From Caldifarciminota bacterium (lineage in GTDB: Bacteria > Hydrothermota > Hydrothermia > UBA1063 > CAJXJZ01): a stretch of 54,449 bases of DNA. Position 1 is the first letter of the stretch; the number at the start of each line of letters is the position of its first letter. Positions 18,450 to 30,524 of the stretch are shown here, piece by piece. A program made the translations under genes and the position numbers. The stretch is from the NCBI GenBank assembly GCA_026986775.1, contig JALSNX010000009.1, positions 1-54,449 of the forward strand, read 5' to 3'. The notes under the pieces are model-generated. The model searched no databases. It was not told the origin of the DNA and saw only the letters and a list, made by a program, of their open reading frames with translations.

Positions 18450-19132
18450 GCCGAATACCCCTGCACGTTGCCATTATAATGGACGGTAACGGCAGGTGGG
18501 CAAAAGAGAGGAATCTACCAAGATATATAGGACATAGAGTAGGGAGCGAATCTGTTAGAGATGTCATAGAGGTTTCAAGGGAGATTGGAATAAAGTACCT
18601 TACTTTATATACATTTTCAACTGAAAACTGGCAGAGACCAAAAGAAGAGGTTGAGTTTCTGATGAGGCTCTTTATGCGCCTGATAGACGAAGAAATACCG
18701 ATATTGAAAAATAAGGGCGTGAGATTTGATTTAACAGGCGATGAAGAACTTATCCCTGATTTTTTGAGAGAAAAAATTGAGTGGGCAAGAGAAGAAACAT
18801 CTAATTGCAAAGATCTACATCTTTATCTTGCTTTCTCTTACGGTGGGAGGCGTGAAATAATACATGGAATAAACAAACTTCTTAAAGAAAAAAAATCACA
18901 CATTACAGAGAAAGAGTTTAGAAACTATCTGTACAGACCCAGTATGCCAGACCCGGATATGCTCATAAGAACAGGTGGTGAAAAGAGAATCTCAAACTTC
19001 CTTTTGTGGCAGATTGCCTATGCTGAGCTGTTTTTTACACAAACACTGTGGCCTGATTTCAGGAGAGAAGAGTATTTAAAGATGATTGAAGAGTTCTCTC
19101 AAAGAGAGCGCAGATTCGGGAGAGTGTCTTGA
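18446..19132 (+). CDS. uppS: Undecaprenyl diphosphate synthase (cis-prenyltransferase)
   Basis: Makes the C55 lipid carrier for peptidoglycan and surface glycans by cis-condensation of isopentenyl diphosphate onto FPP. Landmarks are IIMDGNGRWAK with the catalytic Asp (D13), HRVGSESV, LTLYTFSTENW (about 52-62), and MLIRTGGEKRISNFLLWQ with YAELFFTQTLWPDF. The 228 residues are slightly short but complete. It overlaps frr (ATGA) and cdsA (TTGA), the conserved order of many bacterial genomes. It would supply the carrier for the glycosyltransferases in this window. Confidence 0.95.
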   Translation: MSRIPLHVAIIMDGNGRWAKERNLPRYIGHRVGSESVRDVIEVSREIGIKYLTLYTFSTENWQRPKEEVEFLMRLFMRLIDEEIPILKNKGVRFDLTGDEELIPDFLREKIEWAREETSNCKDLHLYLAFSYGGRREIIHGINKLLKEKKSHITEKEFRNYLYRPSMPDPDMLIRTGGEKRISNFLLWQIAYAELFFTQTLWPDFRREEYLKMIEEFSQRERRFGRVS

Positions 19133-19914
19133 AAGAGCTTGTAAGGCGCGTTGTTACAGGGGCTATACTCATTCCTGTGGTGTTTCTTATCTTCTACATA
19201 TCCGGGATACCACTTCTTGTTTTTGTTATACTCTTTCTTACGGGAGGAATGCTTGAATATCTGAACCTTTGTAGGATTCAAAATTATTTTTCTCTCATCC
19301 TACTTACTTTCACGATGGTAGCCTTTTACGTTTTAAATATAGAGAGCTTCTTTTACCTTATGGGTGTTTTGTTACTTCTTTATATTACCGTTTTTCTTGT
19401 AAGATGGCAAAAAGGTCATACCTTTGAAAAATTTGCAGGCGAGTTATTCGTCTTTGTGTATCTTTTAATTGGTGGGATTTTTGTAATCCTGATAAGAGAA
19501 AACCTCGGTTTTAAACACCTCGTGCTCTTTTTTGTGTCGGTGTGGGTATATGATACTGGAGCATATATTTTTGGAAAGGCTCTGGGTAAGCATAAACTTG
19601 CTCGCAGAATAAGTCCTAAAAAGACCGTAGAAGGAGTTATTTTTGGATTCTTCACCCTCTTTGCAGGTATGATACTCTATTCATACCTCATAGACAACGA
19701 TTTCGGTTTTACCATCAAAACAATGCTTTATTTTTCCCTTCTGGTCTCATATACATCCACTGTTGGTGACCTGATTGAGTCAGTATGGAAGAGAGAGCAA
19801 GGTAAAAAAGATTCTTCAAATCTGTTTCCCGGGCATGGGGGTATACTTGACAGAGTGGACAGCCTCATACTAACGGCACCCTTCTATTATCTCTTTTTTA
19901 AACTCCTTTCTTGA
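19129..19914 (+). CDS. cdsA: Phosphatidate cytidylyltransferase
   Basis: Makes CDP-diacylglycerol for phospholipid synthesis. A polytopic membrane protein of 261 residues with about seven or eight hydrophobic helices and the C-terminal family signature KREQGKKDSSNLFPGHGGIL followed by DRVDS. The start is TTG 19129 overlapping the uppS stop (TTGA). Its last 45 nt overlap the 3' end of the oppositely oriented endonuclease V-like gene. Confidence 0.94.
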   Translation: MKELVRRVVTGAILIPVVFLIFYISGIPLLVFVILFLTGGMLEYLNLCRIQNYFSLILLTFTMVAFYVLNIESFFYLMGVLLLLYITVFLVRWQKGHTFEKFAGELFVFVYLLIGGIFVILIRENLGFKHLVLFFVSVWVYDTGAYIFGKALGKHKLARRISPKKTVEGVIFGFFTLFAGMILYSYLIDNDFGFTIKTMLYFSLLVSYTSTVGDLIESVWKREQGKKDSSNLFPGHGGILDRVDSLILTAPFYYLFFKLLS

Positions 19915-20553
19915 GTAAATGTCGGCAATTCTTAAAGGTTCTGGAAATCTTGCATGAAAAGGTAATTTTATTGTAATTTCTAATGCATTTTTCGGAGATA
20001 TAAGATGCCCCGGTGTAATAAATATGGGTCTTACGTAATCCTGTGACCTTAATACATAACCTATAACTCTCCTCTCTCTGTCCATAATCCGGGTGTAATT
20101 ACCTTTTTTAAGGCCGGGCATTTTGTATGCACCGCAAGGTATTCTGTCTGTTATACCAAAGGATGGCTTTTTAAAGTAGAGTCCCGCATGGGATGCAAGT
20201 CCTATTCCAGCAGGATGTGCAATGCCGGATGCATTTAAAAGCAAAAGATCAAACTCTATTGAGAATGTCCTGATTATTGAAACAACAGGAGGAAGTTCCC
20301 GTATAAAAAACATTCCAGATATATAGGGTAATTCTGCCAAAACCCTTAAGAGATAAATTCTAACGGGACATGCCTTTTCCGTATTCCAGATTACAGCACT
20401 TACATAGGCATCTTCCTCTCTATAACTTACATCAACAGCGAGTAATAATCGTACTGGATTCTCAGGACCTGCAAGAACTATTCTCCTTGCAAGCCGTCTT
20501 TGAAGGTCTCTATATAGCCTCCTGCTTGTTTCGTCTGGCCATCTCTTCTTCAT
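19870..20553 (-). CDS. Endonuclease V-like protein with altered active site
   Basis: Related to endonuclease V, which nicks next to deoxyinosine in DNA or inosine in RNA. Matching blocks are LAVDVSY (D41), YISGMFFIRELPP (E86), LLLNASGIAHPAGIGLASH and PEPLRIADIYS (D211). In the third block, where active enzymes have D-G-x-G (VDGHGIAHPR-like), this protein has N107-A-S-G, so a metal-binding Asp is replaced by Asn. The IGVAK-like block reads FGITD, replacing a conserved Lys. The remaining acidic residues are kept. It may bind but not cleave, or use altered chemistry. The start ATG 20553 overlaps hisS by 44 nt; no better internal start exists. It is the last gene of the C25 peptidase-hisS unit. 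Confidence 0.75.
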   Translation of the reverse strand: MKKRWPDETSRRLYRDLQRRLARRIVLAGPENPVRLLLAVDVSYREEDAYVSAVIWNTEKACPVRIYLLRVLAELPYISGMFFIRELPPVVSIIRTFSIEFDLLLLNASGIAHPAGIGLASHAGLYFKKPSFGITDRIPCGAYKMPGLKKGNYTRIMDRERRVIGYVLRSQDYVRPIFITPGHLISPKNALEITIKLPFHARFPEPLRIADIYSRKEFKKEIIEGCR

Positions 20554-21790
20554 AGATGCGTACGAGTTCTTCTTCTGGCACTAAGACTTCCTTGCCTGTT
20601 TCAAGGTCTCTTACCCTGACCTTCTGCACCTTGATTTCGTCTTCTCCAACAATAACTGCCTTTACAGCATTTAACCTGTCTGCAATTTTCATCTGTGCCT
20701 TCAGGCTTTTAGGTTCGTAAGTCATGTCAGATGGTATTTTCCACTCTCTTATCTTCTTGAGAAGGCCAATGGCGTAACCCTTTGAGAACTCGTTAACAGT
20801 GGCAACAAAATAAAATGGACCAGAAATCCTTGGTATCTGATAAAAGTAGTTGATTATCCTCTCAAGTCCAAATGCCCAGCCCACTGCTGGAGTGGCAGGA
20901 CCACCAAGGTCTTCAACGAGAGAATCATATCTTCCACCACCCAGAATAGTATCCTCAACTCCAATTTTCTCGGATACTATTTCAAAGGCGGTGTGGTTAT
21001 AATAGTCAAGACCCCTGACAAGTCTCGGCTCCTCTCTGTATTTTACACCCCATTTGTCAAGGTACGTCTTTATCTCCTCAAAGTATTTTAAGGATTCAGA
21101 CGACAGGAACTCCTTTAGCTTTGGTGCATCCTTTAATTTGGGACCATCTATTTTACAATCAAGAATCCTCAGGGGATTCCTGCTCTTTCTTCTTTTACAG
21201 TCATTACACAACTCAAGAGATCCATCCTGTTCCTTTTCGTTGAGATAATCCAGAAGAGCTGATTTGTAAGCCTGTCTTTCCTCTATGGAGCCTATTGAGT
21301 TTATAAGAACCACAAGCTTTTCAGCACCCAACTCTTTTAGTATGCTGTATCCCATTTCAATAACCTCTGCATCAATCAGCGGGTCTTTTATTCCTATTGC
21401 CTCAACCCCAACCTGCCAGAACTCTCTAAAACGCCCCTTCTGGGGTCTTTCTGCTCTGAACATGTTCATTATATAGGCCAGTTTTGCGGGTGGCATAATG
21501 CTATTTTCTAAAAACGCACGTATAACTGGAGCTGTGCCTTCCGGTCTCAGCGTATAGCTCCTTCCCTTTCTGTCCTGAAACGTATACATCTCTTTTTCCA
21601 CAATGTCCGTTGAGTCTCCAATGGAACGAATAAAGAGTTCTGTATGCTCAAACGTTGGGGTATTTATGAACTTGTATCCGTACGCTCGTATGGATTTTTT
21701 GATTTTTTCTATCAGCCTTTCCCGAAGCTCAAACTCTTCAGGTATTATATCTCTTGTACCCTTTGGTCTTTTGTATTTCAGCGTATTCAT
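20510..21790 (-). CDS. hisS: Histidyl-tRNA synthetase
   Basis: A class II synthetase of 426 residues. N-terminal KRPKGTRDIIP, motif 2 region MFRAERPQKGRFREFWQ preceded by YTLRPEGTAPVIRAF, histidine-binding LVRGLDYYNHTAFEI, motif 3 AVGWAFGLERI, and an anticodon-binding domain from about 325. A CxxC pair with a third Cys (ELCNDCKRRK, RILDCK) sits in the insertion domain. ATG 21790 overlaps the stop of the large C25 peptidase gene (ATGA), an odd coupling of a housekeeping enzyme to a secreted protease. Confidence 0.95.
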   Translation of the reverse strand: MNTLKYKRPKGTRDIIPEEFELRERLIEKIKKSIRAYGYKFINTPTFEHTELFIRSIGDSTDIVEKEMYTFQDRKGRSYTLRPEGTAPVIRAFLENSIMPPAKLAYIMNMFRAERPQKGRFREFWQVGVEAIGIKDPLIDAEVIEMGYSILKELGAEKLVVLINSIGSIEERQAYKSALLDYLNEKEQDGSLELCNDCKRRKSRNPLRILDCKIDGPKLKDAPKLKEFLSSESLKYFEEIKTYLDKWGVKYREEPRLVRGLDYYNHTAFEIVSEKIGVEDTILGGGRYDSLVEDLGGPATPAVGWAFGLERIINYFYQIPRISGPFYFVATVNEFSKGYAIGLLKKIREWKIPSDMTYEPKSLKAQMKIADRLNAVKAVIVGEDEIKVQKVRVRDLETGKEVLVPEEELVRIYEEEMARRNKQEAI

Positions 21791-24700
21791 CTTTCTACCA
21801 CCACCTTTTTTACGATTTTTTCATTATTTTGACTTACGATAACAAAATAAAGTCCGGGCATTATTTCTCCCAAATCAATATTTGCCCGCCCCTTTTTGCT
21901 TTTAAGTTTTCTTGAAAGTAATTTTCTTCCATTAACATCAAAAACAAATATAGATGGAGCCTTTTTGAGTTTGTATTCAAATGAGAGGCTTCTGGTATTT
22001 ATAATTGAAGGCATGGCGACGTAGAAACCATAATGTGGATTTTCTTCCTTACTGGAGTATGATACTGAATTCACACTTATGTCGTCTATATAAAACCCTT
22101 CTGCTGTGTCGCTATCATCTGTTATAAGAACAAACATTATGCGTGTAGAATCACCATAACCAAGCCCTTCAAGTAAATAACGGTATTCTGACCATCCTAC
22201 GATAAAACTCTTATCCATAAGTGCACCGCCTGAACCGAGATAATCAAGCTCTCTCCAGGCATTATTTACGTTATAATAAATATGAACACCGTCGGTGCCA
22301 TAGGTTGCTGCATCATACCACATATAGAAGGAAAGTACTGGACTGTAACCTGTTTTTATCCACGGCGTCATCAATGTGTCGTGGGCATTATTTGCATAGT
22401 GGCCGGAAATTCCCGACCATACGGAGTAATTCCCTGAATGTGAGCGTGTAGTGGTTCTCTGCCAGTTCCCCGTAAAATAAAAACCATCCATAGATGTTTC
22501 AAAATCAAACAGGTATTTCCCGGGATTTAGTCCATAAGAAATGCTGACAGTATCATCTAAAAAAGCGTTGTTTTTTATTCGGTATTCAATATTGACGATT
22601 GAGTCAGACACATAGCCGCTAAAACCAATAACAACAGAGTCGTGTGCATGAATTGTGCCTGTCATTATGGAATCCTGGTACGGGGTTATTCCCGATGCAG
22701 ACTGAATATAGACTACCACGTTGAAAAGGTCATAAGAGAAAGCATTGTAAATTACAAGTTCAAAGGTATCTACGCCTTCTGTCACAAGATTTACTGGTGA
22801 GCGAGGCCTCAAAAGGACATGTGGCTTTTTGATATATCTTATGAAAGTTCTGGAACCCCAAGAATTTTCAACAGTGAAAGAGATTTTGTCAGAATCAGCG
22901 AGATTTGACGGAATACTGAAGCCGACTGTAATGGAGAATGTAGAATCAGGCAGAACAGTATCTTCAATAACAACTGAATCCTGTGCAAATGTTATGTTAT
23001 TTCCCGTAAGCTTTACATAGAAGTCGCTTATGGAACTACCTGTCAAATTTCGGAAATTGATTTTCAATGTCCCCGTCTCGTCAGGATAGAAATACGATGC
23101 AGAATCGTTATTTAAAATCTCAAAGTTTTCAGCCAGGACTGTGCCAGAGTTGTAAACCCATCTTATAAGTGTCCTGTGGTTTCTTGCATAGATTAAAAGC
23201 AACATTGAATCAGGAATATTTTCTGGAACGGTTATACTCGCAGCACCAGAGAATCCAGTTTGTGCTACAACATAAACGGAATCACCATAGGAAAGAGAGA
23301 CCCTTGCACCGCTCAAAACCCTTCCAGTGGTGTCATATACTGAAAAAGACACCGTACCCCCAGGATGCAAATATAGCGGAAAATTGCTCAAAACATCGCC
23401 TTCGTATCGGGTATGAATTTCCATTTCAGGGTCCCCAAAAAGGTTCAACTGATACTGATGCCATCTATATACATTTTTCCAGTGAGATAGGGGAATATAG
23501 TCTGCTTTATCTTCGGCAAGGGTCATGCCAACATGGAATACAGAATCAATAAAAATCTTGCGGTAAAAATTATGGTCAAACTTATCAGAGTAACCGTAGA
23601 GGGGATTGCCCGGAGACCCCCATCCGTATCTTGAATTTGCTATCATTGCCACAGGACCATCAGGATTCAACACAAAATGTTCTGAGATGGCATCTTCCCT
23701 GTCAAATGCACCAACCCAGCATCCTATGGAATAGAGCACTCCAGAGAAGGCCATTTTCAGGGTATCGGCATCTTCATTTGAGAGGTGTTCCCATGACGGA
23801 CTACCGTTTAACCACATACCCGTCCACCACCCGTGTCCATCGTGATTCAGAATTCCCTGTCCTTCTTTAAGTGCTGATGTAACAGATTCATAGGTTTCAT
23901 TGCCAAGTGCCTCATAGAGTTTTGTGATCTCGTAGTATTCTGGCATAAAAGTGGTATCTATATAGTCCTTACTTTCACCTGAATTGGTATAAGGGTATGG
24001 ATCGTCATTCCACAGTATCATTGCAAAGAACAGGGCATTATCTGCTCTTTGAGTTGGATGCTGCTCGTAGTTTATGAGTTTTCTTGAGAAATTCCTTGCC
24101 TCTTCTATATTATCCACCGGAACCCTTCCCACATAGACATCCGGATATAACTCAACCGAATCCTCAACCTCACCATAGATGCCATCACCGTCAAAGTCCC
24201 ATGTGCCATCAAGGTCAGAGTAGTAAAGATCAGCCCTTATGCTGTCTTCGTCATCCCTGTAACCAGCATTACACGTCATTGCATAGGCAATTCTTGCTGG
24301 AACCTTATCCACATCCCCACCAAGCAAAACGTACATGAGTCCTGAATCAGCATAATACTCTTTAAGAGCATTTCTAAGTTTTTCAGCACTATCTAAACCA
24401 GTATAAGTTGTGTCAATCTCTTCCATTGAAAGTAGTTTAACTCTGTAGCCCTTCTGCTTTTTCCAGAGAGCAAGTGAATCAAATCCGTGAATAATACTGT
24501 CTGTTGACACTATTAAGTAAAGAGGCTCATCATAAGCCTTTCTGGATGTAACTGTACCAGAGTGAAGCTCAAACTCTATATTACAGGAGTCAAGTTTCAA
24601 AAGGATTCTTTCTTTTTTATCATACTTAAAAGGAAAGATAATTACATTTGCAATGTAAATTCCATTTTCCTTTCTCACATCAGCAAGGTATGCAGGATAT

Positions 24701-25041
24701 TCAATATGTATTCCTTCTCCTGTGTATTTATAGGCAGTTTTTTTCACTGAAAAGGGCACAGGGGATGGTGTCATCTGAATATCAACGTTTTTTACAACTT
24801 GAGAATATGTATAATTCAGCACCTTCATTTTTACGGGTTGTTCCTTCAGATAAAAACGCTTTATAACAACAGGTATGTCGTAAAATTGAGGCACTCTAAT
24901 GGCATTAATGGTCGGTGAAGTCTGGACGTGTACTTTCTGCCCATCTTTTCTTATCAGATAATCACTATCTGAAAATCTGATAAGAAAAGTTTGTGATGCG
25001 AACTGAAGCAGTAAAGTTATAAAAACAGAGACATAATTCAT
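21787..25041 (-). CDS. Secreted gingipain-like C25 cysteine peptidase with Por secretion tail
   Basis: A large exported peptidase, 1084 residues from ATG 25041. A signal peptide (MNYVSVFITLLLQFASQ) is followed by a propeptide-like region, then the C25 caspase-like domain starting near EPLYLIVSTDSI. The catalytic His is in NHDGHGWW (H403 in this numbering) and the nucleophile is in YSIGCWVGAFD (C441). Several beta-sandwich domains follow, including a carbohydrate-binding-like domain around WQRTTTRSHSGNYS. The last 80 residues form a type IX sorting tail (IFVFDVNGRKLLSRKL, MPGLYFVIVSQNNEKIVKK). The in-frame TTG at 25077 cannot be the start: it is the -35 box of a perfect promoter. Probable role: extracellular protein degradation or processing of other secreted proteins. 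Confidence 0.9.
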   Translation of the reverse strand: MNYVSVFITLLLQFASQTFLIRFSDSDYLIRKDGQKVHVQTSPTINAIRVPQFYDIPVVIKRFYLKEQPVKMKVLNYTYSQVVKNVDIQMTPSPVPFSVKKTAYKYTGEGIHIEYPAYLADVRKENGIYIANVIIFPFKYDKKERILLKLDSCNIEFELHSGTVTSRKAYDEPLYLIVSTDSIIHGFDSLALWKKQKGYRVKLLSMEEIDTTYTGLDSAEKLRNALKEYYADSGLMYVLLGGDVDKVPARIAYAMTCNAGYRDDEDSIRADLYYSDLDGTWDFDGDGIYGEVEDSVELYPDVYVGRVPVDNIEEARNFSRKLINYEQHPTQRADNALFFAMILWNDDPYPYTNSGESKDYIDTTFMPEYYEITKLYEALGNETYESVTSALKEGQGILNHDGHGWWTGMWLNGSPSWEHLSNEDADTLKMAFSGVLYSIGCWVGAFDREDAISEHFVLNPDGPVAMIANSRYGWGSPGNPLYGYSDKFDHNFYRKIFIDSVFHVGMTLAEDKADYIPLSHWKNVYRWHQYQLNLFGDPEMEIHTRYEGDVLSNFPLYLHPGGTVSFSVYDTTGRVLSGARVSLSYGDSVYVVAQTGFSGAASITVPENIPDSMLLLIYARNHRTLIRWVYNSGTVLAENFEILNNDSASYFYPDETGTLKINFRNLTGSSISDFYVKLTGNNITFAQDSVVIEDTVLPDSTFSITVGFSIPSNLADSDKISFTVENSWGSRTFIRYIKKPHVLLRPRSPVNLVTEGVDTFELVIYNAFSYDLFNVVVYIQSASGITPYQDSIMTGTIHAHDSVVIGFSGYVSDSIVNIEYRIKNNAFLDDTVSISYGLNPGKYLFDFETSMDGFYFTGNWQRTTTRSHSGNYSVWSGISGHYANNAHDTLMTPWIKTGYSPVLSFYMWYDAATYGTDGVHIYYNVNNAWRELDYLGSGGALMDKSFIVGWSEYRYLLEGLGYGDSTRIMFVLITDDSDTAEGFYIDDISVNSVSYSSKEENPHYGFYVAMPSIINTRSLSFEYKLKKAPSIFVFDVNGRKLLSRKLKSKKGRANIDLGEIMPGLYFVIVSQNNEKIVKKVVVER

Positions 25042-25048
25042 GATAATA

Positions 25049-25077
25049 ATTATAAGGCTCTGATCATAAAATTTCAA
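25049..25077 (-). promoter_or_regulatory. Promoter of the C25 peptidase-hisS-endonuclease V unit, predicted leaderless
   Basis: On the minus strand, TTGAAA (25077-25072), 17-nt spacer, TATAAT (25054-25049), then seven bases to ATG 25041. It is a near-consensus housekeeping promoter with no room for a ribosome site. Confidence 0.8.
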
Positions 25078-25755: not shown

Positions 25756-26893
25756 AGTTAACGAAGTTAATCTCTGTATCCAGAAATCCTGAAGCGGCTT
25801 TTCTCTTTACAAATACAATTTTATAGTCTTTGAGCCCGGGCTTTCCAAGTTCTTTCCATCTCTCAAATATATTTTTAAACTCGTAGTAAGCAGAATGTGC
25901 CCCCCATTTTATAACCCTGTCTTCAAGTATAGCGACTACCCCCATACCTTCACCCTGTTCCTTGATTATCCCATAAACCTTCTTTTCATCTTCAGTAAGC
26001 ATGGAAAAACTATCCTCGCAATGAATGGCTACAAAAAATGCGAAATCCTGTCTGTCTCTCTTTGAAAGTCCGTTAAATGCGCGGGTAAGATGCGGGTCTT
26101 CAATTCCATATTCCTCTATAATCTCCTTGAGAGAGATAAACTCATTTTTGAAAAGCGGAAAGTGTTTTGTTGCACTGGCACCCCTCAGCCTTGTGAAAAC
26201 AACATAGTGAATACCCTCTCCAAAAAGCACCTCATCGTTGAGTTTAGTAAGTTTGATAAGGACCTCACTACCTCTTATGACATATGGCATTACGATTCTG
26301 CCACCTGTTTTGAGCTCTTCAAACCACACATGGGGTATTTCCGGGGTGGAGGATGTAACAACTATAACATCAAATGGTGCGTGCTCTGGAACGCCTTCAA
26401 CTGCATTGCGATTTAAAAGAATAATATCCTCTGAAAGACCGGCATTCTTGAAAGCAGCCCTTGCAAGGTTGTAAACGGTTTCATTGATTTCCGTTGTAAT
26501 TACTTTTCCTTCTTTTCCCACTACTTTGCTTAAAACAGCAGCATTATAGCCTGAGCCTGTGCCCACTTCAAGCACTCTGTCTCCTTTCCTTATATCTGCC
26601 TCTTCAATCATCACACTCATTACTGCTGGTTGAGAGGAAGAAGAAATAATATTATCATCTTCCACAAGTATGGGGATAGAATCGTCTCTGTAAATGAGTT
26701 CTGCAATTTCAGGGCTTACATCATGTCTGTTAACAGGATAAGATTTCCAGCCCTCTGCTGTTTTTTGCCACAGGCTCCAGATAAAATCCTCTCTTTTAAT
26801 ATTAAGGAAAGCCTCTGCTATATCGTCTCGGTGTAAGTATCCCTTTTTTCTTAAACTATCAACAAGCGCTTTTCTCAATTCAAGTGTTTCCAT
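25748..26893 (-). CDS. pcm: Protein-L-isoaspartate O-methyltransferase with C-terminal extension
   Basis: Methylates isoaspartyl residues so that damaged proteins can be repaired. The N-terminal 210 residues form the methyltransferase: ISSSSQPAVMSVMIEEA, then the SAM loop LEVGTGSGYNAAVLSKVVG and VITTEIN. The protein is 381 residues, against about 210 for the basic enzyme; the extra 170 C-terminal residues (from about 215) are a separate domain I do not recognise, seen in some longer bacterial homologues. The promoter is TTGACC-17-TATAAT (26949-26921). The predicted leader is about 20 nt without a Shine-Dalgarno site. Confidence 0.88.
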   Translation of the reverse strand: METLELRKALVDSLRKKGYLHRDDIAEAFLNIKREDFIWSLWQKTAEGWKSYPVNRHDVSPEIAELIYRDDSIPILVEDDNIISSSSQPAVMSVMIEEADIRKGDRVLEVGTGSGYNAAVLSKVVGKEGKVITTEINETVYNLARAAFKNAGLSEDIILLNRNAVEGVPEHAPFDVIVVTSSTPEIPHVWFEELKTGGRIVMPYVIRGSEVLIKLTKLNDEVLFGEGIHYVVFTRLRGASATKHFPLFKNEFISLKEIIEEYGIEDPHLTRAFNGLSKRDRQDFAFFVAIHCEDSFSMLTEDEKKVYGIIKEQGEGMGVVAILEDRVIKWGAHSAYYEFKNIFERWKELGKPGLKDYKIVFVKRKAASGFLDTEINFVNFI

Positions 26894-26949: not shown

Positions 26950-27016
26950 GTTATGTGAAATTGATTTGTAAATCTTTGATTTTTGCTTTAATCTAAATAC
27001 GCAAAAGGGAGGCTGT

Positions 27017-27466
27017 ATGAAAATTTTAGATGTTCTGGATATACATCACATAAAACTTGATCTTGAGAGTAAATCAAAGGAAAGTGTAATTGATGAACTT
27101 ATTTCCATCCTGACTGAAATACCCGAAAACAAACGCTCTGTAATCAGAAAAGAAGTAATGGAAAGAGAAGCCATAAAATCAACCGGTATAGGACATGGCA
27201 TAGCTATCCCGCATACGGAGACAGATAGTGTTGAAGGCATTCACGTCGCTTTTGGTTTGAGTAAAAAAGGCGTTGATTTCCTCGCTCTTGACGGAGAGCC
27301 AGTTTATCTTCTCATATTAGTTGTCGCAAATAAAAAACTAAACCTGAAATACCTGAGTCTCCTCGCCCACGTGGCCAGGATTTTGAGTAAAGAGGATATA
27401 AGAAACAAACTTAAAAGCGCCAGTTCACCTGAAAATATAATTGAAATACTCAAAGAGGTGGATTGA
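27017..27466 (+). CDS. PTS EIIA domain protein (Ntr/fructose type)
   Basis: A 149-residue stand-alone EIIA domain of the fructose/nitrogen (PtsN) class. The phosphorylatable His lies in GIGHGIAIPHTET (H66). AAAGGGAGG precedes ATG 27017. It is the first gene of a four-gene unit with a PII-like protein and two antiporter-like membrane proteins. EIIA-Ntr domains regulate potassium and other ion transporters and are found fused to or beside CPA-type antiporters, so a regulatory role on the two downstream membrane proteins is the simplest reading. No HPr or EI gene is in the window. Confidence 0.85.
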   Translation: MKILDVLDIHHIKLDLESKSKESVIDELISILTEIPENKRSVIRKEVMEREAIKSTGIGHGIAIPHTETDSVEGIHVAFGLSKKGVDFLALDGEPVYLLILVVANKKLNLKYLSLLAHVARILSKEDIRNKLKSASSPENIIEILKEVD

Positions 27467-27780
27467 TGAATCTGTATATCTTTATTCTGGAGCGGGAGGA
27501 GTTTCTTGATGACCTTCTTGAAGCCATGATAGAGGCTGAGATAGAAGGGATTTCTATTATAGATGCAACGGGTGCAAAAAAAGTTCTCGCAGAGGACATA
27601 CCTATATTTGCAGGAATAATACAGGCCATGCAGGGGGATAGGGGAAGACATAAAATAATTTTAGGTACCTCTGAAAACAATGCCATCTATGAACTCAGGG
27701 AGATCTTAAGCGACCTTGCTCCAGAGTTGTTGGATAAAGGACTCAGAATATACAGTTTCAGGGTGGAGCAGGGGATTTGA
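27466..27780 (+). CDS. Small PII-like regulatory protein
   Basis: A 104-residue soluble protein starting at ATG 27466, which overlaps the EIIA stop as TGATG (a TTG at 27463 is an alternative). The pattern YIFILEREEFLDDLLEAMIE, a strand and then a helix followed by GISIIDATGA, resembles the ferredoxin-like fold of PII/CutA-type proteins; no T-loop uridylylation Tyr is evident. The C-terminus (LRIYSFRVEQGI) overlaps the next gene (TTGA). Coupling on both sides implies that it works with the EIIA and membrane proteins, perhaps as a nucleotide or ion sensor. The family call is tentative. Confidence 0.65.
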   Translation: MNLYIFILEREEFLDDLLEAMIEAEIEGISIIDATGAKKVLAEDIPIFAGIIQAMQGDRGRHKIILGTSENNAIYELREILSDLAPELLDKGLRIYSFRVEQGI

Positions 27781-28799
27781 GGCTATTTGCCCTTGTTCTA
27801 ATCGCATTTTTTGCGTCATTCTTGAGTTTTAGGGGACAGAAGTTTGTCGTTTCAGAATTTTTATTTTTAGCCTCAGGGCTTATAGGTGGCCTTTATATTA
27901 AGGGGCTTGAGCCGGGTACATACAGATTCTTTGAGCTTTTCCTGATAGGTTTTTTTGGTATAATTTATGGAATGAGTCTGGACCTTTCAATGATTCTTAA
28001 ATCTGCACAAAAATCTCTCAAACTTGCATTTATGGAAGCCTTTTTGGGGATCGTCTATTTAATTGTAGTGTCTTTAGTGCTTCACCCTCATGGTATAACA
28101 CTTACTGAAAAATTGGCTATTCTGGCCTTTGTGATTGTTGGTGCAAGCCCCTATTTTATTGTATCTCTTGCCAGAGAGGAGATAATAGCATCCTTTTTTC
28201 TACCTGCCATTGTTGCTCTTGCTCTTGGACTTGCTGGATTTCATCGTAGCTCACTTATTATGTTTGGAGCAGTTCTTGTAACGGGAATTATACTTAAGGT
28301 CACGGAAGACAGAGCACCTGATACAACCACAGCACTGAGCATAGTTATGGGTGGCTCCATTATAATACCATATATTGCAATTCATTATGACCAGAGCCCT
28401 TTTTTTTATTCCTTCATCATGGGGATTCTGCTCACCAACCTCTTAAGGAGCAAACGTCTTCTTGAACTTTTACTTAAACTGAAAGAAGACGAGAGATTAT
28501 TTTTTCTTGTATTCCTGTTTATGATTGGGTTATTTACAAATGTAAATACAGAAGTTATCAAAAAGTCCCTCATAATTTTTGCTCTAAGGGTGTTTTACAA
28601 GATAGCAATTTCCCGTGGGCTATATAATAGCAAGGATGACCACCACTTTGTTTCATGTGGAGCCCTGTCTCTTATTATAGCAATAGATGTACTCGGACAC
28701 GGAGAGATACTTCGGGGATGGGGGGCAGCCATTGTTATTGCATACTTCATAAACATCGTGTTCACAGGAATTTTTACTTTGAAGGCACAACCCAAATGA
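27777..28799 (+). CDS. Antiporter-like polytopic membrane protein (divergent CPA2 type), subunit 1
   Basis: A 340-residue integral membrane protein with about ten or eleven hydrophobic helices. The C-terminal half (FIMGILLTN, then DERLFFLVFLFMIGLFTN) matches the layout of CPA2 cation/proton antiporters, where an FFvxxGl block occurs. The place of the ion-binding Asp in the usual STDP/ND segment reads VIVGASPYFIV, without an acidic residue. It starts at TTG 27777 (TTGA overlap) and ends overlapping the next gene (ATGA). With the paralogous neighbour it may form a two-subunit transporter or an ion sensor. Substrate unknown. Confidence 0.7.
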   Translation: MRLFALVLIAFFASFLSFRGQKFVVSEFLFLASGLIGGLYIKGLEPGTYRFFELFLIGFFGIIYGMSLDLSMILKSAQKSLKLAFMEAFLGIVYLIVVSLVLHPHGITLTEKLAILAFVIVGASPYFIVSLAREEIIASFFLPAIVALALGLAGFHRSSLIMFGAVLVTGIILKVTEDRAPDTTTALSIVMGGSIIIPYIAIHYDQSPFFYSFIMGILLTNLLRSKRLLELLLKLKEDERLFFLVFLFMIGLFTNVNTEVIKKSLIIFALRVFYKIAISRGLYNSKDDHHFVSCGALSLIIAIDVLGHGEILRGWGAAIVIAYFINIVFTGIFTLKAQPK

Positions 28800-29923
28800 G
28801 TATATTCTGGATTTTGCCGTTTGTTTTTGTGTTATTCTATCTTGCGGGTTCAGGTCCACAGGCTTTTATTGGTACAACCTTCCTGCTTGTTCCCTTTGCA
28901 AAGGAATTCCTGTCCTATGGAATTTCCACACCATTGTTCTTCCTTTTAAGCGGGGTGCTTATGGGTGCAATAAGAAATAATACTTCTTCTCTTCTTCTAA
29001 AAGAAGTATTTGAAATCTCCACGTTGTTTCTTGCCTATGCTGCCAGTTATGAGTTTACTTCAGCCCTTAAAAAGCATTCTCTGGCCATTATAAGCAAGAG
29101 AGTGCTTGCTGAATTCGTGATTGTTCCCCTTCCATTTGTAGTGTATTTTCTTTTACTTGGTCTGGATTTAACTTTTGCTCTGGTGCTTTCTCTTCTGTTT
29201 CTCTCAATTTCTCCCATTACATCCATGATTCTACTTTATGAATCTCCCATAGAAAAAAAACTAAGGGAAACCATAGAAGGAGGAATTATTTTTCGGGACG
29301 GATTACAGATATTGCTCCTCATAGTCGCAGCACACTTCGTATTTCGTGGTGCAGAAGATGCATCAAGAGGACTTGTAAAGGCCATTTTTATCGCTCCTTT
29401 CCTGGGTTTATTTCTTGCAACAGGAAGTACCCTGAGTAGAAAAGGGACATATCTATTCCTTCCTGTTGCAATTGTTATTGCCATTTTGCTGGAAATGTAT
29501 CTGCACATCTCTTCTATTTTCCTCATGATTTTTGCGGGGTTCTGGGAAAGAGTTTCAGAGCGAAAAGCTCGTCCAGCTTTCAGGGTTATTGATATGGGAA
29601 AAATCCTTTATCCATTCGTTTACACATACACGGGACAGTTAATGGTTACTTTTTCTATTTCAGTATTTTTAGCCGGGTTTGTTGCACTTTCTATAAAGGT
29701 TTTATCTGAATATACTGCCGCAGTGATTTCAAAATGTCATAACAAAAAAGTTGATATTTCAGTAAAAATTCCAATGGCAGGCCTATCTCTCCACCACCTT
29801 ATTTACTTTAAAGACAGTATCGCCCCATTTATTTTTTCCATAATAGCATTTGTACTAATTGCAAGTGAGTTCCTTGCACCGCTTTTGCTCTCATCTTTAA
29901 AAAACGTAAAGGAAAAAATATAA
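28796..29923 (+). CDS. Antiporter-like polytopic membrane protein (divergent CPA2 type), subunit 2
   Basis: A 375-residue membrane protein with about eleven hydrophobic helices. FLSISPITSMILLYESPIEK corresponds to the sSTsxxvxxxLxE region of CPA2 antiporters, and GGIIFRDGLQILLLIVAA to the following helix with its conserved Asp. Like its neighbour it lacks the canonical STD motif, though the Asp in FRDG is kept. ATG 28796 overlaps the previous stop; the long upstream extension of the frame overlaps subunit 1 and is not coding. The pair look like distant paralogues. The mazG promoter sits in its last codons. Confidence 0.7.
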   Translation: MSIFWILPFVFVLFYLAGSGPQAFIGTTFLLVPFAKEFLSYGISTPLFFLLSGVLMGAIRNNTSSLLLKEVFEISTLFLAYAASYEFTSALKKHSLAIISKRVLAEFVIVPLPFVVYFLLLGLDLTFALVLSLLFLSISPITSMILLYESPIEKKLRETIEGGIIFRDGLQILLLIVAAHFVFRGAEDASRGLVKAIFIAPFLGLFLATGSTLSRKGTYLFLPVAIVIAILLEMYLHISSIFLMIFAGFWERVSERKARPAFRVIDMGKILYPFVYTYTGQLMVTFSISVFLAGFVALSIKVLSEYTAAVISKCHNKKVDISVKIPMAGLSLHHLIYFKDSIAPFIFSIIAFVLIASEFLAPLLLSSLKNVKEKI

Positions 29924-29930: not shown

Positions 29931-30524
29931 ATGCAGTTTAAAGGATTTGATGGTCTTTATCGTCTTGTAAAGAAACTCAGGGCTCCGGATGGTTGTCCAT
30001 GGGACCGAAAGCAAACCAGCCAGACCCTGAAAAACGACCTCATAGAAGAGGTGTATGAGGTCGTGGATGCGATAGAAAGAAAGGACAATGATTCACTTAA
30101 AGAGGAACTGGGTGACCTTTTATTTCTCATTCTCATGCATATAAGAATTAAGGAAGAAGAAGGGAAGTTCACTCTGAATGATGTCCTGGAAGGTATAACA
30201 AACAAAATGATCTACAGACATCCACATGTTTTTGGTGATGTAAAGATAAAAAATGAGGATGAACTATTGAAAAACTGGGAAAAAAGCAAAAAAGGCAAAT
30301 CGCTTAAAGAATTTCCTCTTAATCAGCCTGCATTACTCGGCCTTGAAAGAGTGGTAAAGAGGCTTAAAAGGCATGAGATAAAAGAAGATGACATTATCCA
30401 GTGTTGCGAAAAGGACAAAAATCTTCAGAAGATAATTGAAGGCGCTCTCGGTATTATAAAAGAAAACAAAAGCCCCGAGGATGAGCTCAGGGCTTTTATA
30501 AAAAAATATCTTGTAATGAAGTGA
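29931..30524 (+). CDS. mazG: Nucleoside triphosphate pyrophosphohydrolase MazG
   Basis: Hydrolyses (d)NTPs to NMP and pyrophosphate, a house-cleaning function. The N-terminal KLRAPDGCPWDRKQT, then EEVYEVVDAI and EELGDLLFLILMH, provide the EExxE...ExxD metal-binding residues of MazG; YRHPHVFGDV follows. At 197 residues it is shorter than the two-domain E. coli form (263), so the second domain is reduced. The last codons contain a strong hairpin (30468-30497). The stop lies 2 nt from the deoC stop on the other strand. Confidence 0.92.
   Translation: MQFKGFDGLYRLVKKLRAPDGCPWDRKQTSQTLKNDLIEEVYEVVDAIERKDNDSLKEELGDLLFLILMHIRIKEEEGKFTLNDVLEGITNKMIYRHPHVFGDVKIKNEDELLKNWEKSKKGKSLKEFPLNQPALLGLERVVKRLKRHEIKEDDIIQCCEKDKNLQKIIEGALGIIKENKSPEDELRAFIKKYLVMK
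30468..30497. terminator. Bidirectional terminator hairpin inside the 3' end of mazG
   Basis: AAAAGCCCCGAG (30468-30479) pairs with CTCAGGGCTTTT (30486-30497), 11 of 12 pairs, loop GATGAG. On the plus strand it ends in TTTT; on the minus strand GGGCTTTTGTTTTC follows deoC by about 30 nt. One hairpin could stop both convergent transcripts while coding for MazG. Confidence 0.65.

Follow-up and report, generated by a model that had tools for sequence, protein, structure and literature searches.

The window analyzed here (a 54,449-nucleotide [nt] stretch comprising positions 1 to 54,449 of contig JALSNX010000009.1, assembly GCA_026986775.1, from a Caldifarciminota bacterium) contains four intact forward-strand open reading frames (ORFs) encoding an EIIA protein of the phosphotransferase system (PTS), a PII-like protein, and two membrane proteins, referred to here as M1 and M2. 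M1 and M2 are different paralogs of the cation/proton antiporter (CPA) superfamily, each with its own clade. In many bacteria, the two are encoded by coupled genes downstream of those for EIIA and a PII-like protein, and the window carries a strongly diverged version of this conserved twin-subunit system. The two paralogs have undergone reciprocal active-site losses: the carboxylate is retained by M2, usually beside a basic residue, and the lysine of transmembrane helix (TM) 10 is retained by M1. A twin-subunit CPA with such losses behind EIIA and PII-like genes is real and conserved, and its twin form is new among CPA antiporters; the heteromer itself is predicted from sequence.

Two CPA paralogs with reciprocal active-site losses

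Neither M1 (340 amino acids [aa], TTG start; positions 27777 to 28799, + strand) nor M2 (375 aa; 28796 to 29923, + strand) is matched by any Pfam family, including PF00999, or by NCBIfam. This is due to divergence, as PF00999 does match the M2-type protein of locus L165 (E value of 3.4e-26) and the M1-type protein of L228 (1.2e-15). In hhalign profile comparisons against same-phylum CPA2 antiporters, M2 scored 96.8% (E value of 2.8e-10) and M1 scored 86.6% (4.5e-6), against 0.1 to 0.5% for unrelated polytopic proteins used as negative controls. A direct hhalign comparison of M1 with M2 is weak (3.9%); the two are related by way of the CPA family. A sequence search of the PDB with the M2 profile also finds SOS1 (E value of 0.0074), with the SOS1 motif mnDg standing opposite lrDl of M2. 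AlphaFold2 models of M2 (pLDDT of 74, pTM of 0.76) and M1 (pLDDT of 77, pTM of 0.80) both contain helix breaks at TM4 and TM11, as in the NhaA fold. All top Foldseek matches are CPA antiporters, namely NapA (1.1e-7), NHA2, SLC9C1, and SOS1 for M2 and SLC9C1, NHA2, and NapA for M1, for which the weaker matches include SbtA and ASBT. The profiles and models together identify both proteins as NhaA-fold CPA members, and the CPA layout that a preliminary description of this DNA had read in two different polytopic proteins is borne out. An M1 unrelated to CPA was ruled out by the hhalign and Foldseek results, given the control scores. Each membrane protein alone matches a homodimeric transporter, such as NapA, at the level of fold only, and neither has a complete active site.

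The eight-position CPA motif has the TM5 pair, D163-D164 in NhaA, at positions 6 and 7 and the TM10 lysine, K300, at position 8 (PMC6181914). Position 7 is Asp in 94% of CPAs and essential in those characterized, an Arg or Lys at position 8 on TM10 pairs with position 5 or 6 on TM5, and four TM5-TM10 arrangements cover 97% of CPAs (PMC6181914). We scored these positions in an expanded alignment, assigning position 8 as the column in which 36 of 38 solo antiporters have the lysine; D6-D7 is present in all 38. Among 20 M2-type proteins, D7 is kept in 19, D6 in none, and K8 in 2, and position 6 is instead Lys in 11, Arg in 4, Met in 2, and Gly, Ser, or Ala in the remainder. The M1-type proteins differ, with D7 in only 2/20 (L228 and L234), D6 in 9/20, and K8 in 15/20, although the register of the most diverged M1s (L166, L219, and L223) is unsure in this alignment.

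The window proteins fit this division in a diverged form. M2 has S-I-S-P140 on TM4, R167-D168 on TM5, and K301...E305 on TM10, which places Arg rather than Asp or Asn at position 6 and E305 at position 8, with K301 one turn earlier. M1 has L142-P143 and no acidic pair on TM5, while R271...K275 is kept on TM10. D168 of M2 is invariant, and window M1 has no counterpart Asp. MAFFT misplaced the TM4-TM5 gap in the genus M1s, such that alignments differ by 1 to 2 columns, but no register puts an acidic residue at D6 or D7. The claim of the preliminary description that both membrane proteins lack the Asp motif is therefore correct for M1 and wrong for M2. The segments on which that claim was based, VGASPYFIV and SISPITSM, are not a lost Asp motif but the unwound region of TM4, in which 37 of the 38 solo relatives carry no Asp either (e.g., ATAPA). 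M1 and M2 are unlikely to form a single site between them, because each CPA protomer has its own core domain.

Conservation and phylogeny of the twin modules

A survey of genomes for the gene order, as the preliminary description had suggested, recovered EIIA, PII-like, M1, and M2 in that order in 15 genomes from 9 families, more than chance would produce. Several lie outside the phylum. The 15 comprise the window genome and four close relatives, five loci outside the phylum found by a PII-like profile search (L165, L166, L172, L180, and L184), and five found via an M2-type profile (L219, L220, L222, L223, and L228). The M1 and M2 genes overlap by 4 to 14 nt in many of the twin loci. M1-M2 pairs also occur without EIIA or PII-like genes nearby (L227, L231, L233, and L236), in a looser arrangement (L234), and at a locus cut by the contig end (L230). 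The M2-type antiporter of L234 (L234:1640-6160) is fused into a 1,506-aa protein with a weak AAA-type match. M1 was observed only adjoining an M2, in a sample of M1s collected as neighbors of PII or M2 matches. A restriction of the system to one genus and its order, as obtained from an M1 sequence search and a PII pattern scan, did not hold up in the broader search with a PII-like profile, in which 390 genomes were sampled and the PII-like family was present in 74, including 41 outside the phylum.

In a careful tree, M1 forms one clade (support of 94/92) and M2 a separate clade (96/99). An 87-row tree recovers the M1 clade (20 rows) with a support of 96 and groups M2 with 8 further lone KD-type proteins with a support of 100. 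Long-branch attraction was rejected as the sole cause of these clades, as both are kept in trees built without long-branched rows. M1 and M2 distances are correlated over 18 loci (r of 0.66, Mantel p of 0.0002), a correlation that shared descent alone could produce.

The regulatory genes and their surroundings

The EIIA gene (27017 to 27466, + strand) encodes 149 aa and matches Pfam PF00359 (PTS_EIIA_2; E value of 1.7e-30) but falls below the PtsN equivalog cutoff. His66 is invariant among relatives and lies inside a fully conserved stretch; by this alignment it is the phosphorylatable residue, in agreement with the preliminary description. In the host genome, as in the four close relatives, HPr and EI are encoded by neighboring genes and an HPr kinase is present, and in the host genome no PTS_EIIC protein of PF02378, the one EIIC family searched, was found. 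Because EI, HPr, and HPr kinase are present and PF02378 is not, the PTS and this EIIA are likely regulatory rather than sugar transporting. The sole other EIIA_2 of the host genome (L076:4857-7037; G000:C3, about 18856-21036) immediately follows two genes for sugar-type ABC permeases (BPD_transp_1), a position suggesting that it controls an ABC importer.

The second gene (27466 to 27780, + strand) encodes a 104-aa protein without any Pfam family match, scoring below the PF00543 threshold, and no PF00543 protein was found in the host genome. An alignment of 18 relatives nevertheless matches true PII over nearly its full length in hhalign (83.6%, E value of 8.2e-6), and the best PDB sequence matches are PII proteins, albeit weak (E value of 0.1). 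A GxG(K/R)I B-loop-like motif is present in the wider family and reduced in the window protein. The assignment as PII-like made in the preliminary description stands in the sense that the protein appears, from profile comparison and PDB matches, to be a distant PII-superfamily member.

The same two regulators adjoin other antiporters. In 69 inspected PII-like loci, an EIIA gene is nearby on the same strand in 51, a CPA gene in 45, and both in 38. In 7 of the 69, EIIA and PII are fused into one protein, whose gene in most cases comes immediately after a CPA gene. Fused proteins of 271 to 276 aa follow solo CPA antiporters at L150:4491-5312, L164:4491-5321, L168, L178, L183, and L186. Solo CPA2 antiporters with separate EIIA and PII-like genes form modules at L049, L058, L064, L159, L170, and other loci, and a PII-like gene stands directly before Mrp subunits E, F, and G at L153:5079-6606 and, together with EIIA, at L176:3462-5414. 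As the EIIA and PII-like genes and their fusions adjoin both solo CPA and Mrp antiporters, the pair is tied to cation/proton antiport in general. At four further loci (L048, L060, L067, and L071), a CPA gene and a PII-like gene are followed by four genes of conserved length, which in L048 encode an unknown 428-aa protein, an EPSP-synthase family protein, GcpE (ispG), and an M24 peptidase. Of the other CPA2 antiporters of the host genome, three (L073, L074, and L075) each adjoin a small CBS-domain-pair-like protein, a domain judged by eye, in what would be a further pairing with a regulator.

The successive overlaps of the four genes are 1, 4, and 4 nt, as originally described, and the four-gene unit is real. 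A fifth gene had been overlooked: mazG (29931 to 30524, + strand), encoding a MazG nucleotide pyrophosphohydrolase (Pfam PF03819, E value of 3.5e-28), starts 7 nt after M2 in the window and overlaps M2 by 4 nt in L015. The identical order of EIIA, PII-like, M1, M2, and mazG is found in 5/5 close genomes, i.e., the window and its four relatives (genus-mates L012, L013, and L014 and, from another family of the order, L015), with the PII gene of L014 broken by unread bases. mazG is thus the fifth gene of a conserved unit and may be linked to the others only by cotranscription. Upstream, a ribosome-binding-like sequence (gggagg; 27005 to 27016, + strand), read directly from the sequence, precedes the EIIA gene, and a 123-bp gap that probably holds the operon promoter separates this gene from a divergent gene ending at 26893. 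Farther upstream, a large, secreted-type C25 peptidase (21787 to 25077, - strand) has a gingipain-like domain (PF01364, E value of 2e-54) and a C-terminal Por secretion sorting domain.

Proposed function, alternatives, and known systems

We see roughly an even chance that M1 and M2 constitute an obligate heteromeric CPA-type antiporter, in which M2 transports, M1 is its pseudo-antiporter partner, and gating depends on the phosphorylation of EIIA and on ligand binding by the PII-like protein. M1 and M2 would form a heterodimer via their dimerization domains, and M2 would run an exchange cycle of a monovalent cation versus one proton on the single carboxylate D168. The fixed positive charge (Arg or Lys) before D168 would take the place of the usual salt bridge between D6 and K8 and make exchange electroneutral. 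M1 would be nontransporting, a structural and regulatory partner. Unphosphorylated EIIA, reporting phosphoenolpyruvate or PTS state via EI and HPr, may bind and inhibit or release the complex, and the PII-like protein may contribute a nucleotide or metabolite signal. The broader proposal, to which we give slightly less than an even chance, is that an ancient duplication split the NhaA-fold active site into a K/R-D subunit and a pseudo-antiporter with the TM10 lysine, yielding a widespread, undescribed obligate heteromer under the control of EIIA phosphorylation and of a new PII-like family whose gene lies in the same operon. The heteromeric transporter with two cytosolic signals envisaged in the preliminary description is strengthened by the cross-phylum gene order, the two paralog clades, and the reciprocal losses, although the reason originally offered, that both proteins lack the Asp, is wrong for M2.

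Several observations count against an obligate heteromer or its proposed gating. M2-type proteins occur without M1 in L221, L225, L226, and L229, and M2 may therefore be a homodimer in some species. The M1 of L228 keeps the full DD-K site. The twin-operon EIIA of L184 (L184:4552-5016) has GIPN in place of AIPH and has thereby lost the phosphorylatable His, so it cannot accept phosphate in the usual way. In the window genus itself, M1 and M2 have branch lengths of 3 to 4.5 in the 87-row tree, far more diverged than elsewhere, and function may thus have drifted there. The lone M2-type proteins and the intact site of L228, along with two M2-type genes side by side in L224 and the match of each protein alone to homodimeric CPA structures, would also suit a pair of independent homodimers, antiporters or transporters with related functions, that share an operon by chance. 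We regard this explanation as unlikely but deserving of consideration: the D7 carboxylate, essential in characterized CPAs (PMC6181914), is missing from 18 of 20 M1s, M1 is seen only beside M2 in the neighbor-based sample, and the M1 and M2 trees are correlated.

Transport of another substrate than Na+ or K+ against H+, such as an anion or organic ion, might be suggested by the reversed charge at the M2 site, and Lys or Arg at position 6 combined with K8 loss lies outside the four arrangements covering 97% of CPAs (PMC6181914). NhaA-fold relatives also include anion transporters, with SbtA and ASBT among the weaker structural matches noted above. We assign this possibility a low probability, since the nearest relatives in sequence and fold are cation/proton antiporters and D7 is retained. 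About equally improbable is a membrane sensor or signaling receptor of transporter descent, for which EIIA and the PII-like protein would be outputs or cosensors. The genus M1 without an acidic TM5 residue, the unusual R-D...K...E arrangement of the genus M2, and the signaling nature of both small proteins are compatible with a sensor, which the preliminary description had entertained in place of a standard antiporter. However, the retention of D7 in 19/20 M2s makes it less likely, the same regulators adjoin ordinary DD and Mrp antiporters, pointing to regulated transport, and Pfam and NCBIfam scans identified no adjacent kinase, receiver, or cyclase gene in the window operon. That the genes are decaying antiporter remnants without function in the window genus is highly improbable; despite their divergence and lost canonical residues, the M1 and M2 ORFs are intact and coupled in every genus member, with identities of 41 to 62%, and the conserved gene order extends to mazG, a pattern that speaks for purifying selection.

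A gated heteromeric antiporter would bear on open questions, as CPA antiporters have been studied as homodimers, and their reason for dimerizing and the coupling roles of position 6 and Lys8 remain unsettled. With a natural pair in which the carboxylate and the lysine have been parted and the Asp has gained a basic neighbor, these roles could be tested directly. Two major bacterial signaling systems, phosphorylation by the PTS and ligand sensing of the PII type, would moreover meet on a single ion transporter. That EIIA and PII-like genes, separate or fused, accompany CPA2 and Mrp antiporters both within this phylum and beyond it points to a general coupling of ion and pH homeostasis to metabolism.

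We found no description of an EIIA, PII-like, and antiporter operon or of a heteromeric CPA in the open-access literature. The closest functional parallel is in Escherichia coli, in which unphosphorylated PtsN binds and inhibits the CPA1 K+/H+ antiporter YcgO (PMC11808508). Both cases involve an EIIA-type protein acting, or proposed to act, on a CPA-superfamily antiporter and PTS parts without a sugar permease role, whereas YcgO is a single polypeptide with its own cytosolic RCK/CorC region, for which neither a second paralogous subunit nor a PII-like partner has been described. In E. coli, ptsN is not known to lie in the ycgO operon. The CPA2 antiporters TtNapA, KefC, and GerN share with M2 the NhaA fold, the unwound TM4 and TM11, and the D7 carboxylate, but they have been studied as homodimers of one subunit type with a complete D6/Q6-D7...K8 or N6-D7...R8 site. 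In the twin pair this site is split, with K/R6-D7 mostly lacking K8 in M2 and K8 lacking D7 in M1. The solo CPA2 modules, for which we also found no published description, have the same EIIA and PII-like families beside a CPA2 antiporter, but this antiporter is single and its DD-K site is intact, whereas the twin loci have two with reciprocal alterations; the solo modules are likely the parent arrangement of the twin module.

PII-type proteins bound to a transporter are known from SbtA-SbtB (cited in PMC10710835) and AmtB-GlnK. As proposed for the present system, a small PII-type protein acts on a membrane transporter in these cases; it is trimeric there and may be so here. They belong to other transporter families, although SbtA has a related inverted-repeat fold, and involve neither an EIIA nor a heteromer, and their PII proteins contrast with a family that scores below the PF00543 threshold. 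Mrp (MrpA-G) is, like the proposed M1/M2 complex, a hetero-oligomeric cation/proton antiporter, and the same PII-like family lies beside its E, F, and G subunits at the two loci described above, but its complex I-like fold is unrelated to that of CPAs.

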